DNA of 64,000 nucleotides, from positions 21,041,067 through 21,105,066 of the forward strand of contig NC_056545.1 in the NCBI RefSeq assembly GCF_910596095.1. The letters run 5' to 3'. The position numbers were made by a program, and so were the translations under genes. Each line of letters starts with the position of its first letter. Position 1 is the stretch's first letter. Shown piece by piece: positions 1,311-62,340 of the stretch. The notes beneath the pieces were generated by a model, which did no database searches, was not told the origin of the DNA, and was given only the letters and a program-made list of their open reading frames with translations. This DNA is from Thunnus maccoyii. Lineage: Eukaryota; Chordata; Actinopteri; Scombriformes; Scombridae.

Positions 1311-10083
<8,773 letters not shown>

Positions 10084-21720: not shown

Positions 21721-49337
<27,617 letters not shown>

Positions 49338-56760: not shown

Positions 56761-57148
56761 CGTTACAAGTAATTTAATTACTTTTTGGATTACGATTTAA
56801 ACACTAAAACAAAGCCGGAACCACTTATTATTTCTCTTACACTTCAGAGGGGAGATTTCACAGTTAATTATTGACGCTGAATTTAGTCTTTGTCCTCTAA
56901 AACTATGGCTATTTCCTTGATTTTTTTACAGATATTTCCATCCTTTCCATTGAAAGTTAACTACTATCCATTGTCATATTAATATATTTAAATTATATCC
57001 TCATTTTGTAAATTATGCTAAATCTTCTGCCTCTCTAATGGGTTGTTTAAGTTTCCTGCTGTTTCGCGTTTGAAACAAGCAACAAGTAACGAGTAAAGGC
57101 GCTGTTTTCACAAAGGCGCACAGCGGTGAGTTTGTGGGATGTCCTTCG

Positions 57149-57250
57149 GCGAGGCGGAGGGCGGGGGCGGAGGGATCTACACTCAGTACGGTGAGGCGCG
57201 GAGGGAGGGGGCGGAGGGATCCACACACAGCACGGGTTGTGCCGGTGACG
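57149..57250 (+). promoter_or_regulatory. atf5: Probable atf5 promoter: duplicated GC-box unit
   Basis: Two imperfect copies of a 43-base unit (57150-57192 and 57193-57235) each contain GGGGGCGGAGGGATC, a consensus Sp1-type GC box. A TGACGCAG, which resembles a CRE/ATF half site, follows at 57246. There is no TATA box, typical of a GC-box promoter with start sites just downstream. The exact start of transcription cannot be read from sequence. Confidence 0.55.
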
Positions 57251-57376
57251 CAGTTGGTTGCTAGGTGTGAAAGAAACTGATGCTTTCTCACAATTAAGCT
57301 GCTCCTCAGTTTACAGGTCGACCACAACAAAGCAACAGCTCGTCCTTTTTTTGCGCTGTTCTGGATATCCCGAGCT

Positions 57377-57406
57377 AAAAAAAAAAAAAAAAAAATGGCT
57401 CTTTAA
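57377..57406 (+). promoter_or_regulatory. atf5: atf5 uORF1 preceded by an A19 leader tract
   Basis: ATG GCT CTT TAA at 57395-57406 is a three-codon uORF in strong context (A at -3, G at +4). It follows directly on a run of 19 A (57377-57395). A three-residue uORF1 that lets ribosomes resume scanning is the first element of the ATF4/ATF5 translational switch. The distance from its stop to the uORF2 start is 84 bases, close to that in mammalian ATF4. Confidence 0.85.
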
Positions 57407-57490
57407 ATTCGTGAACAAGTTGGACCCGAAAAGAAGTCGTGCTTTGCTTTTGCAACGCACCCCCAAAAGCTCTACAGTTTTTCTGCAAGA

Positions 57491-58612
57491 ATGGAGTAAG
57501 TCACACTCTCTCTACTCGCCATTCATACAGCTGTGGCAAGTTTGTTACTATGTTGTTATTGTCGCAGTTTATCTCCTTGTGTTGCACATACAGTTGCAGA
57601 GAGGTCTGTTCTTTGACTGGTTGTTCTGCTTTATACCATTTCTTCTATTTTAATATCTTCAAATAGTCTATTTTGCCTATCATGCTTCTTTAGTAACGTT
57701 CCTCCCAGGGTTTATAAGACAGCTGTGTTACTAAGATAAATTATATGTAATGTAAATTACAGTACAACCTCTATGTACTGTAAACTGGTATCACATTTCA
57801 GCCACTTTCAGTTGTAGAGTCTCGTCAGGTTTTCATTTAGATTTCACATTATGTCATTTAAACTGCTTAAGTGATCAAAGGTGATTCATCTAAAAGAACA
57901 TGAGATTGGAAGTAGCTAATCTGCCTTAATCCAATTGAATGATCTTTCTCTCTCAGATAGAGAGATGCTGTAGTTAAGCTGGTGCTTTTTGTCAACAGCT
58001 GGGCCCCTGACAGCGTCATAGGTCCCATGTGTTTTGAGGATGTCAAGTGCATTTTGCTTTGAGACAGTTCAAAGCCCAGAGGACTCAGGTCTTACTATTG
58101 TATCACTGACCGTGTCAATTCTGAGGGTTTTGGGTTTTGGAATAGTTTATTTTCTACTCTGCTTTTTTCAGTAATTGACATTTGCTATAAATGTACTTGT
58201 TCATGAGAGTTAATTGTGAATTTTACTGAAACCCATGATTCGTACAAGAGGACTTGCTGGTGATTTCTTCATTGTCGCCTCTCTGTCAAAACAGACTGAG
58301 TCATGTTGAAAAACTTGCTGAGGACAGCAATCATCATCATCAATCAGCCATCAGCCGACAGAACAAGTTGGATCATTTTAGCCGGACACATTTCTGATCC
58401 CCGCTTCTGTTTCACCTTCTAGGTTTCATTATGCTCACCCAGCCCTGCTCTCTGTGGCCCATCTGTCAGACCCTGCTTGCTCTCAGCATATGCTTGGACT
58501 TGGACTGAATCAAAGCACCAGCAGACAAAATGATGGCAACATCAGCTCCTGTTTGGAAGACTCTTCGTGTCTGCCCGGCAGACCCCCTCGCTCTCTCTCA
58601 CCCACAGGCTAA
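57491..58612 (+). promoter_or_regulatory. atf5: atf5 uORF2, spliced across intron 1, overlapping the main start
   Basis: The uORF2 ATG is at 57491, five bases before a donor (ATGGA then GTAAGT at 57496). Splicing to the acceptor before 58423 gives an open frame of 64 codons beginning MEFHYAHP, ending TAA at 58610-58612. It overlaps the main coding start (58530) out of frame by 83 bases. That is the established inhibitory uORF2: translated when eIF2 is active, bypassed when eIF2-alpha is phosphorylated, allowing the main frame to be used. Context of its ATG is strong (A at -3, G at +4). Confidence 0.85.
58431..58508 (+). promoter_or_regulatory. atf5: Third ATG/uORF nested in uORF2
   Basis: An ATG at 58431 (A at -3, C at +4) opens 25 codons in a frame different from both uORF2 and the main ORF, closing with TGA 21 bases before the main ATG. 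Ribosomes that bypass uORF2 under stress would meet it next. Whether it is used is unknown; its context is weaker than that of uORF2. Confidence 0.6.
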
Positions 58613-60456
58613 CCACAGCCAATCACAGGGGTGCAGGGGGGAGGTGTCAGAGGAGAGTCAGCACTTAATTGGTGAGTTGCAGCGAGTACGCTTTTTTATA
58701 TTTTTCCCCATTTCAGGTGGGCTCGGCACTGCAGCACATTCGTCCTTCTTGAACAGTAAGTAATAAAGTAGCTATGCCTAATATATGCTCGAACTTTATT
58801 CTAAAAAAAAATATTGCTTTGCATTTACTATTGTCGATCAGATTATGCCTTTAGGAAACTGCTACATGCAATGTTGGATGACTGATATTTATTTAATATT
58901 TGCATGAACGTTATTACTTAGCTGTAACTTTTTCCTTCATCTGTTAGTTTGTAACGACTGCAATATTTTCCCCTCCTTAATAGGTGATGGTCTCACTGAC
59001 TGGATGACGGAAGAAGTGGATTTCTCCTCGTACCTCCCGAACCCTCCTTCCCCTCCCTCCTCCACCAATGCCTCCCTTCCCCCTTCACCCCTTCAGAATG
59101 ATATCCAGGTGCCCTCTGACTTGGAGGTCATGACCTCTCTGCTGCAAGAGGAACTTGCCCAACTAGAGGACTACTTCCTGTCTGAACCACTGCCAGAGAA
59201 AGGGCCAAGGCTGGGAAAATGCGACAGGGGTCCACTGCCAGCGGGTCCTCAGCCGTTCAGTCAGCTGCCATACGCATCATACTCTACATCCAACCAATCG
59301 GAATCCAGCCCACTTCTTGTTACCCTGGCAACCGGAGAACTGGACCTGCTGAGCATCTGTGGTGGGCCCATTGGGCGATCCAAAATTCCAAGACACGCCC
59401 CGTACAGCTGCAGTCGCCCCAGTGGGTGTGGTAGGAAAAGAGTTCCTGATGGTGTGAGGGTCAGTGAAGGCTACGATAGCAGTTTGTTGGGTTCCAAAGG
59501 AAATAACTCAGGTAACTCAGCCGTGACCCTCGCAGGCAACAACTACGGCTGCGTAGAAGAAGAGCAGCTGGTAGGGAAAAGCTACTGTCTGGGCAGCGCA
59601 GTCGAAGTCAGAAGATGTGCCGTTCTACCAAAAGACGACAAAAATTGCTGTTTCGGTCAAGATGTCATAGGTGGTGCAAAGGGTGTTGGTGGTGGGTTTG
59701 GTTTTGGTGGATCACTTGATGCCCCTCATAAGAAAGAGGATCTGTTGATGTATAGCATGAGAGAGGTCAGCGGAGGCACTGGTAGCAGTGAGGTGTTGAA
59801 CAGTATCAAAACTAGTGTGGAGGTGACAAAAGCTACTGTTTCATGGAAGACCCAGAGCAGCGAAGGTTGTTATCTTCCAGCAACACCACAGTCTGAGGCC
59901 TATCATAGCTTCTTAGGCAACATCAATGAACACGTCAAAGCAGAGAGTCTACAGATAGGGCAACATGATTTACACTGTAACTTCCTCGAGGATCAGGGCC
60001 CAGAGTGTCTTTTAATGGCTAGGGAGAGTCTGAACTTGGAGTCTTCAGGGCACAGACAAGCGTGTAGGTTGAAGGAGGACCACTGTGCTGTCAAATACGA
60101 AGAGGACATCATTCCAGCAGAAGGCGGGGAGCGCAAACAGAAGAAGAGAGATCAGAACAAAACTGCCGCTCACAGGTAAGTTTTAGTTTCCGCTTGACAA
60201 AATATATAACTTGGGGCACGATTTCACAGGTAAAGATCTTCGTTTTAATCGTTCTTTTTCTTAACGCAGGTATCGCCAGCGAAAAAGGGCAGAGCTAGAT
60301 TCTTTGGAGGAACAGTTGCATTGCCTTGAAGGGAGGAACCGGGAGCTCCGGGACAAGGCAGAGTCCGTAGAACGTGAAATCCAGTATGTCAAAGACCTGC
60401 TGATTGAAGTTTACAAGGCCCGTAGCCAAAGGCTCAAGCAGGACACGACCGCGTAA
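58530..60456 (+). CDS. atf5: ATF5, bZIP transcription factor of the integrated stress response
   Basis: Exons 58530-58671, 58984-60175 and 60270-60456 join in frame to 506 codons plus TAA. Exon 2 begins inside [16 protein letters not shown], matching the mammalian ATF5 N-terminal segment, followed by [20 protein letters not shown], an acidic amphipathic activation motif. Residues about 90-420 are a Gly/Ser-rich region longer than in mammals (human ATF5 is 282 residues). The basic region [20 protein letters not shown] spans the exon 2/3 junction. The leucine zipper runs [18 protein letters not shown] through [14 protein letters not shown], nearly the same as human ATF5 and clearly distinct from ATF4. 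The first ATG of the pair ATGATGG is taken as start; the second has the better context. A short N-terminal extension ([12 protein letters not shown]) has no function I recognise. Function: binds C/EBP-ATF and CARE sites; in the mitochondrial and ER stress responses. Fish have two copies; this may be atf5b. Confidence 0.93.
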
Positions 60457-62340
60457 CACCAAACTCCTGCAAGTACATTTAAAGAGGGAATAACAGGGAA
60501 ATTGTGGAGCTTTTTGTGTCTTTATGATTGTCCAGAATTGAATGTTTCAATTTTTTTTTTCATGGCGGGCGGGGTAAATGCATGCTTTGCTAATGTGAAT
60601 TATTTTTTACATTTTAAATCAACACTCTATTCAATGCTTCCATTGCTTTCGCACTCTAATCACTTGAGCCTGCACTGTGGCATTGTAATGCTTTAAATGA
60701 CAATCATTTTTAATAGATCTCACACTGCGTGAATCTACTAATTGAAATAGGGTTATTTCTGAAGAAGTAATGTTATTCATTATGCAGGTTTAATATTTTG
60801 AATAGCCTTACATTGGAATTGATGTCAGCAATAGAACTAAATGTTTTTCTTTTAATTTGAAATTTTTATTTGCAGTTACTGTGTCACACTTTTTAATGGA
60901 TGAAGTAGTCAAGTACTGTATGTTGTGTCAACGGGTGAAACAGCATCATTTCATTTTGAACACATCTTTCAATCCAAATACTTTTCTAGAAAAATTTCTA
61001 ACCTCCCTTGAACAGCACATGATATTTCAATTGCTATGAATATTTTAAAAGATTAGAATTGTTGTTGACTTTTACAATTGTGGAAAGAACCGCTGATAGA
61101 GATAGAGAGAAAAAAGACTTTTTGTTATCAAAAATGTACCATTTTTTATGATTTTAATATTGTTGGTGCTTTTTGACGAAGCATTTCATTGACTTCAGGT
61201 TTAATGCAACCCTAAATATTTATTACTTAGTGGGATTTGTATGTTTTTGGTATGTAGTTCTCTTTTCCCCCCTTTTTTTTTTTATAAAGGACAATCATCT
61301 AAATTTTTACCCGGCTTTAGTAACATTACATTGTCTACTGTATTTGTTTTATTTTCCTGATAACTTGCATTACTTTTTAAGTAACAAATCACCTGTTTTT
61401 TCTCCAGCGGTGATTGCAAATAATGTCCAAAAATACAGATTCTGTCACCGAAATAGAACTGATTTATCTCAAATTGAATGTGGAAACACTTTATTGTGTT
61501 TTGGGCAATATTTGTCACTTGCATATTGCAAAAATTATAAAATCTATTTTGCAGCTCAGGATATGCAACAGTCCTACAAATGTCAGTAGATGATTCATAG
61601 CAGGAGACTACAAACCTAAAGCTCCTCTGTTCTTCAATTTACATGGTAAGATTTCAATGACATACAGGTTTTCCTTTTGTAAAAATAAAAAAAGTTTTTT
61701 CTTATGAACAAATATTGTAACCAGTAGAGTTTAGCAGCTTCCCTCTGCATGTCTTTACATAAATGTTCTCTCTCTCTCTGCAATAGAAAAATTAGGATTT
61801 CAGATACAAGTCTTTCTCTAACTGCTTGTTAAGGCAATAAGTTTTCTAGGCCTCTGGCTGATCTGCACTAATTTGTAAAAACTTTTGTATGTTCAGGGAG
61901 TGGAGTGTGATAGCCTTTTCTTTGTAGAAAATTAACTGAAAAAATCTCATTAGATTATTTGTTTAGGCTTTTGCTGTTAGCTTCGGTGCAAGAGGAAATC
62001 TTTTCCAATTCATTTATTGCAAAGCAAATATTAAGGTCACTGTTAAAATGCCTACCGAGGATCATTTTTTTTCTATGCATATTTATTTGAAGACAATCTT
62101 GAATATAAGCGCTGAATTTATTTCTATTTAAGTTTCTGTTTGCCCCCCCCCCCCCTCCCCCCTCCTGCGGTGTACTATCAACTCCGGTTGTTAAAACCAA
62201 AAATGTTTAATGGCAGCATAATTTCAAATAATCTGAACTCACATTATAACACTTTGTAATTTCACTTTCATTTAATCATGTTACCTTTGTGTGTCGTCGA
62301 CATGTTTCATTTCAGAAATAAAGTGTGTCATCAACTCAGT
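60457..62340 (+). other. atf5: atf5 3' UTR
   Basis: Long AT-rich non-coding tail. AATAAA at 62317-62322 followed by a GT-rich stretch (TGTGTCATC, TTGTGTTTTG) is the best poly(A) site, giving a UTR of about 1.9 kb; an earlier A-rich AAATAAAAAAA lies near 61683. Repeated ATTTA pentamers (for example near 61217) may confer mRNA instability, which would suit a rapidly induced factor. Confidence 0.6.

Follow-up and report, generated by a model that had tools for sequence, protein, structure and literature searches.

Delayed reinitiation is the standard account of the switch in the mammalian ATF4 leader, and the overlap between uORF2 and the coding sequence (CDS) of the human gene is reported as 83 nt (PMC5588925). 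Delayed reinitiation is reportedly not the whole story for human ATF4, where uORF2 is translated under stress; the same leader is described with the stem-loops SL1 and SL2 before uORF1 and SL3 in the uORF2/CDS overlap (PMC11058473). The consulted part of that paper names no stem-loop in the spacer between the two uORFs, and its text as a whole contains neither 'intron' nor 'splic'. The human ATF5-alpha leader is said to resemble that of ATF4, both having two conserved uORFs (PMC3738444), and PMC9971878 likewise describes the ATF5-alpha switch as similar. The work on the ATF5-alpha leader is that of Watatani 2008 and Zhou 2008, cited here via PMC3738444, PMC7530721 and PMC9971878. Removing the AUG of the second ATF5 uORF raised a reporter about 12.8-fold (PMC8894207). 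A contrary view holds that the ATF5 mechanism appears different from that of ATF4 (PMC5588925).

Among teleosts, the switch was demonstrated for zebrafish atf4a and atf4b by reporters and AUG mutations; the uORF1 and uORF2 mutants behaved as delayed reinitiation predicts, in constructs that held only part of uORF2 (PMC8547220). That study concerns atf4, not atf5: its text mentions atf5 0 times, and in the consulted part an intron inside uORF2 is not discussed. The F isoform of Drosophila Xrp1 also carries two uORFs, the second overlapping the main ORF, but it is a different gene and its leader alone is insufficient for induction (PMC13268129). In the consulted parts of the open-licence literature we found no description, also for zebrafish atf5, of a fixed intron in uORF2 codon 2 or of a repeat in the spacer, which may be published elsewhere.

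We analysed a 64,000-nt stretch of Thunnus maccoyii DNA (the window) that holds an atf5 gene with a leader mostly of this known kind. With mammalian ATF5-alpha it shares the two conserved uORFs, an inhibitory uORF2 that overlaps the CDS out of frame, and the ATF5 CDS itself; with mammalian ATF4 it shares the 3-codon uORF1, the overlapping uORF2 and the overlap of 83 nt (PMC5588925); with the zebrafish atf4 genes it shares the teleost uORF1/uORF2 arrangement. Unlike ATF5-alpha as described, the locus has two further AUGs in exon 2 and a run of 18 adenines before uORF1. What it adds is an intron position shared by four family genes, additional AUGs in exon 2 and, in the spacer, an inverted repeat. 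The ATF4/ATF5 switch layout is hereby extended to one fish atf5 gene, and four genes of this genome have their inhibitory uORF2 interrupted by an intron, each time at the same position.

The 5′-proximal uORF1 is very short and has a strong start context (A at -3, G at +4). Its stop lies 84 nt before the uORF2 ATG at 57491, whose context, AAGAATGG, has a purine at -3 and G at +4. When intron 1 is removed as predicted, uORF2 overlaps the CDS start by 83 nt, out of frame. The CDS begins at 58530, with a second in-frame ATG at 58533, and joining it across 58671/58984 and 60175/60270 gives an open frame of 506 aa. Downstream of the leader, it encodes a bZIP domain of the ATF4/ATF5 type, matching both Pfam bZIP_1 (E 3.2e-12) and the solved ATF-4 bZIP (E 1.6e-13). 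Our naming of the gene as ATF5, not ATF4, rests on stretches of its protein that we take to be typical of ATF5, and on its grouping with one relative against two others (below). An earlier note on this DNA had described uORF1, the 84-base gap and the ATG at 57491, which we recomputed from the sequence (56800-60600) and found the same to the base; its splice junction of 57495 to 58423, 64-codon uORF2, CDS start and 83-base out-of-frame overlap were reproduced by our computation on the spliced model. The note had the leader anatomy right, but it missed the AUGs at 58431, 58490 and 57280 and the inverted repeat of the spacer.

Features of the atf5 locus (positions are those of the window)
Feature	Position	Strand	Details
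A18 run	57377..57394	+	adjoins the uORF1 ATG; read directly
uORF1, ATGGCTCTTTAA	57395..57406	+	M-A-L-stop, read from the sequence
Inverted repeat, candidate hairpin	57439..57460	+	9-nt arms, 8/9 paired, 4-nt loop
uORF2, first part	57491..57495	+	ATG and two bases of codon 2; end of exon 1
Intron 1, predicted	57496..58422	+	GTAAGT ... CTAG, 927 nt, 15 ATGs
uORF2, second part	58423..58612	+	64 codons in total when spliced; stop TAA ends at 58612
Further uORF	58431..58508	+	25 codons; A at -3, C at +4
atf5 CDS, first coding part	58530..58671	+	open reading frame
atf5 CDS, exon 3	58984..60175	+	open reading frame
atf5 CDS, exon 4	60270..60456	+	part of the bZIP domain, and stop

The adenine run in front of uORF1 may be either an A-rich leader or a variable homopolymer; reading the leaders of the other three family genes, we saw no such run at the corresponding place. 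We also tried the 12-nt uORF1 sequence as a marker. It matched the genome 96 times on the forward and 92 times on the reverse strand (the backwards control, 11 and 12 times), and is uninformative on its own. Further upstream, an AUG at 57280 with C at -3 would open a 5-codon uORF, if transcribed. CpG is highest at 57000 among nine 200-nt blocks (observed/expected 1.07), which is compatible with a promoter there.

Within exon 2, the AUG at 58431 comes 13 nt after the uORF2 AUG in the spliced RNA, and the stop of its uORF lies 21 nt before the CDS start. The AUG at 58490, with C at -3, shares the frame of uORF2. Both should catch some of the ribosomes that pass uORF2, which weighs against the switch reading. 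We read the AUG at 58431 as a probable second trap that would lower the leak and may dampen induction; since only 13 nt separate the two starts, 40S subunits that pass uORF2 should mostly pass this AUG too. The three other spliced models have no AUG between the uORF2 AUG and the first AUG in the CDS frame.

Querying the 782-Mb genome with the bZIP domain, we scored 17 candidates and found four matches at the cut-off of E ≤ 0.001: the atf5 locus (C13), C6, C2 and C18. In the bZIP domain, C6 is 89% identical to C13, and C2 and C18, which are ATF4-like, are 59% and 56% identical to it. Teleosts have two ATF5-type and two ATF4-type genes, as found here. All four carry a 3-codon uORF1 of the form MA-x (M-A-L, M-A-F, M-A-V and M-A-V in C13, C6, C2 and C18; the same order is used below), followed after 84, 83, 76 and 77 nt by uORF2. 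In each gene, uORF2 begins with its ATG and two bases of codon 2 (ATGGA, ATGGG, ATGGC and ATGTC) and then meets the donor GTAAGT. Thus, ATF4-like and ATF5-type genes alike, four of four, have a phase-2 donor in uORF2 codon 2, and the layout as a whole is conserved in all four family members found in this one genome.

The relatives' acceptors were chosen by reading, that of C2 being one of six candidates that pass a simple filter. These choices affect the lengths of intron and uORF2 and the frames, but not the donor position. On the chosen models, intron 1 measures 927, 673, 1248 and 787 nt, the spliced uORF2 has 64, 55, 67 and 63 codons, its overlap with the CDS is 83, 80, 68 and 83 nt, and relative to uORF2 the CDS is in frame +1 in each of the four genes. 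In the C2 model, a second intron falls in the uORF2/CDS overlap (L014 3367-3543 and from 3955), so that uORF2 is split twice.

Exon 1 is similar within each pair of genes: for C13-C6 and C2-C18 alike, 0 of 500 shuffles scored as well. In 200 nt near the intron start the similarity is weaker, 72 (C13-C6) and 31 (C2-C18) of 500 shuffles scoring as well. Between the pairs, shuffles scored as well as exon 1 in 10 (C13-C2), 99 (C13-C18), 264 (C6-C2) and 259 (C6-C18) of 500 cases. Within each pair, the uORF2 peptides also resemble one another (0 of 1000 shuffles scored as well), a similarity that lies largely in the CDS overlap and is not independent of CDS conservation; between atf4 and atf5 peptides we tested for similarity and found none (216 to 925 of 1000 shuffles as good). 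Common descent across the ATF4/ATF5 split rests on position and layout, since the uORF2 peptides and most of the exon-1 comparisons show little or no similarity there. The simplest account would be that the split uORF2 predates the ATF4/ATF5 split and that the ancestor already had the donor position. Human ATF4 exon 1 presumably ends at the same place in uORF2.

We consider it probable that the fish atf5 leader works by ordinary delayed reinitiation, and that its split uORF2 comes from an ancestral exon boundary. The earlier note had proposed an ATF4/ATF5-type switch of uORF1 and uORF2, a reading now backed by the anatomy and by the same layout in all four family members. These two we observe directly; we infer the transcription start, the splicing, translation of the uORFs, the stress response and the common ancestry of the intron position. 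Ribosomes would translate the 3-codon uORF1, after which 40S subunits would resume scanning. With plentiful ternary complex, they would reinitiate at the strong uORF2 AUG 84 nt further on and translate across the CDS start in another frame, and Atf5 would therefore not be made. When eIF2-alpha is phosphorylated, the slower reacquisition of ternary complex would let more 40S subunits pass both uORF2 and the AUG at 58431 and arrive at the CDS start. The boundary in uORF2 codon 2 would already have been present in the ATF4/ATF5 ancestor, and splicing of intron 1 would be no regulated step.

The stops of the uORFs also lend themselves to another account, in which the leader is more a device of nonsense-mediated decay (NMD) or of leader length than a stress switch, and uORF translation mainly destabilises the unstressed mRNA. 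From the uORF1 stop to the exon 1/2 junction there are 89 nt, and from the uORF2 stop to the next junction 59 nt; the corresponding distances are 88 and 59 nt in C6, 81 and 299 nt in C2, and 82 and 275 nt in C18. The usual distance in the NMD rule is 50-55 nt, which the uORF stops of all four genes exceed; NMD is therefore possible, the uORF2 stop of the atf5 locus being 59 nt from its junction. Hatano 2013 is reportedly a paper whose title concerns the ATF5 5′-UTR and NMD. However, such a device leaves the similar uORF1-uORF2 gap and the constant frame between uORF2 and CDS unexplained, and it is compatible with a switch acting at the same time. We regard this account as unlikely.

Inspecting the spacer between uORF1 and uORF2, we noticed an inverted repeat that is kept within each pair of genes. 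The two atf5 spacers share a 22-nt block, GTGCTTTGC-loop-GCAACGCAC, that is identical at 20 of 22 positions (57439-57460 in the window and 4747-4768 of L013); its arms are identical and both differences fall in the 4-nt loop. The atf4-like pair has CAGTGCA and TGCACTG around a 9-nt loop (L014 2076-2098 and L015 3917-3939), and here too all six differences are in the loop. Although the arm sequence differs between the atf4 and atf5 genes, the repeats sit at the same level of the leader, with starts 32, 38, 38 and 33 nt downstream of the uORF1 stop (C13, C6, C2 and C18). Differences confined to the loop would arise by chance with a probability of 0.026 in the atf5 pair and 0.0008 in the atf4-like pair, and end-to-end pairing as good was reached by 2 and 20, respectively, of 200,000 shuffles of the block. 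The blocks were chosen after inspection, and their case rests on identical arms with differences confined to the loop. The exact atf5 arm pattern occurs at two places in the genome, both of them atf5 leaders; the atf4 arm pattern occurs at 17, two of which are the atf4-like leaders (backwards control, 3).

Folding predictions gave a mixed picture. In a wider context, the predicted probabilities of the pairs in the repeat are 0.93-1.0 in C13, 0.62-0.87 in C6, 0.52-1.0 in C2 and 0.93-1.0 in C18 (8 pairs in C13 and C6), and in C6 a competing hairpin is favoured over the repeat in the best predicted fold. Folding of the whole spacer has z values of 0.04, -1.79, 0.49 and -1.40 in C13, C6, C2 and C18, and was equalled or bettered by 99, 8, 133 and 15 of 200 shuffles; whole-spacer folding energy is weak evidence at best for a hairpin. 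The best inverted repeat of each spacer was equalled in 491, 212, 252 and 257 of 3000 shuffles, and is mildly unusual (7-16%). Looking for compensatory change in the repeat arms, we found none within either gene pair. The repeat may be an RNA hairpin that slows ribosomes after uORF1, or else a two-fold symmetric DNA site. Either way, its arms, kept while the loops change, offer a concrete target for mutation in a well-understood reporter system. Its place in the spacer differs from those of SL1 to SL3 in human ATF4 (PMC11058473). An SL3-like stem-loop in the uORF2/CDS overlap is unsupported for atf5, as the C13 overlap folds much as its shuffles do (z -0.51) and that of C6 folds worse (z 1.42); the overlap of the ATF4-like C18 folds moderately better than shuffles (z -1.89).

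An exon junction complex (EJC) is expected about 20-24 nt before a junction. A bolder reading of the repeat would have ATF4 and ATF5 inherit a single exon-1 module of uORF1, hairpin, uORF2 AUG and donor, in which the hairpin and the EJC slow the 40S subunits and splicing tunes the stress threshold. The hairpin would start 32-38 nt after the uORF1 stop and the donor would lie 5 nt from the first base of the uORF2 AUG; the EJC would act on the first rounds of translation, between hairpin and uORF2 AUG. Were this true, the delay of 40S subunits before uORF2 would set how much eIF2 has to be lost for uORF2 to be skipped. We think it improbable.

Splicing of intron 1 is predicted from sequence signals only. 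Its donor reads ATG GA|GTAAGT, where exon 1 ends, and its acceptor CACCTTCTAG|GTTTCA, where exon 2 starts; the intron cuts uORF2 after two bases of codon 2 (phase 2). On unspliced RNA, uORF2 would be ATG GAG TAA at the atf5 locus, and ATG GGG TAA, ATG GCG TAA and ATG TCG TAA in C6, C2 and C18. A uORF scan of the unspliced DNA would consequently show a 2-codon ORF and miss uORF2. The earlier note had concluded that the switch exists only on spliced mRNA. This is literally true but says less than it might suggest, being a nearly automatic result of the donor phase: any GTRAGT donor (GTAAGT or GTGAGT) in this phase gives a stop on unspliced RNA, which by itself is no design. The likely meaning of the split uORF2 is an ancestral exon boundary.

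One could nevertheless picture a layer of regulated splicing, in which stress alters retention of intron 1 or the choice of acceptor and leaves a 2-codon uORF2. The donor in uORF2 codon 2 and the unspliced ATG NNG TAA, found in four of four genes, would fit. The short form, however, is automatic from the donor in this phase, and the introns bring 15, 11, 23 and 16 ATGs (C13, C6, C2 and C18), so that retention should silence the CDS. With 15 additional ATGs, the unspliced atf5 leader should therefore be off, not freed, and retained-intron RNA should yield no Atf5. We hold such regulation to be very unlikely. As a curiosity with no evidence of use, skipping of exon 2 would also leave a 2-codon uORF in both atf5 genes.

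To gauge chance, we shuffled the spliced leader with dinucleotides preserved and the real CDS kept, and counted leaders in which a short uORF with purine context preceded, by 50-150 nt, a second uORF that overlaps the CDS out of frame. A comparable arrangement arose in 229 of 20,000 shuffles with the 5′ end assumed at 57280 and in 231 of 20,000 with 57330, about 1.1% on criteria that were set after inspecting the locus. One leader alone is suggestive, not conclusive; the four-gene comparison carries the case. Many vertebrate leaders carry uORFs, and such an arrangement does arise in shuffles at that rate, but chance uORFs without function are hardly credible given the same layout in all four family genes found and the similarity of exon 1 within pairs.

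Two words that we take to be CRE-like were seen in the relatives: TGACGTAA upstream of uORF1 in the C6 atf5 gene (L013, about 4528-4535) and TGACGTCA within the first intron of the atf4-like gene C18 (L015, about 4443-4450). Elsewhere in the window, reading frames at 8464-9264 (minus strand) and 45338-45784 (plus strand) match retroelement proteins (RVT_1; a sub-cutoff match to Exo_endo_phos_2). An open reading frame at 12724-13164 matches histone H2A (Pfam Histone_H2A_C) and ends in SQEY, presumably the ending of H2AX.
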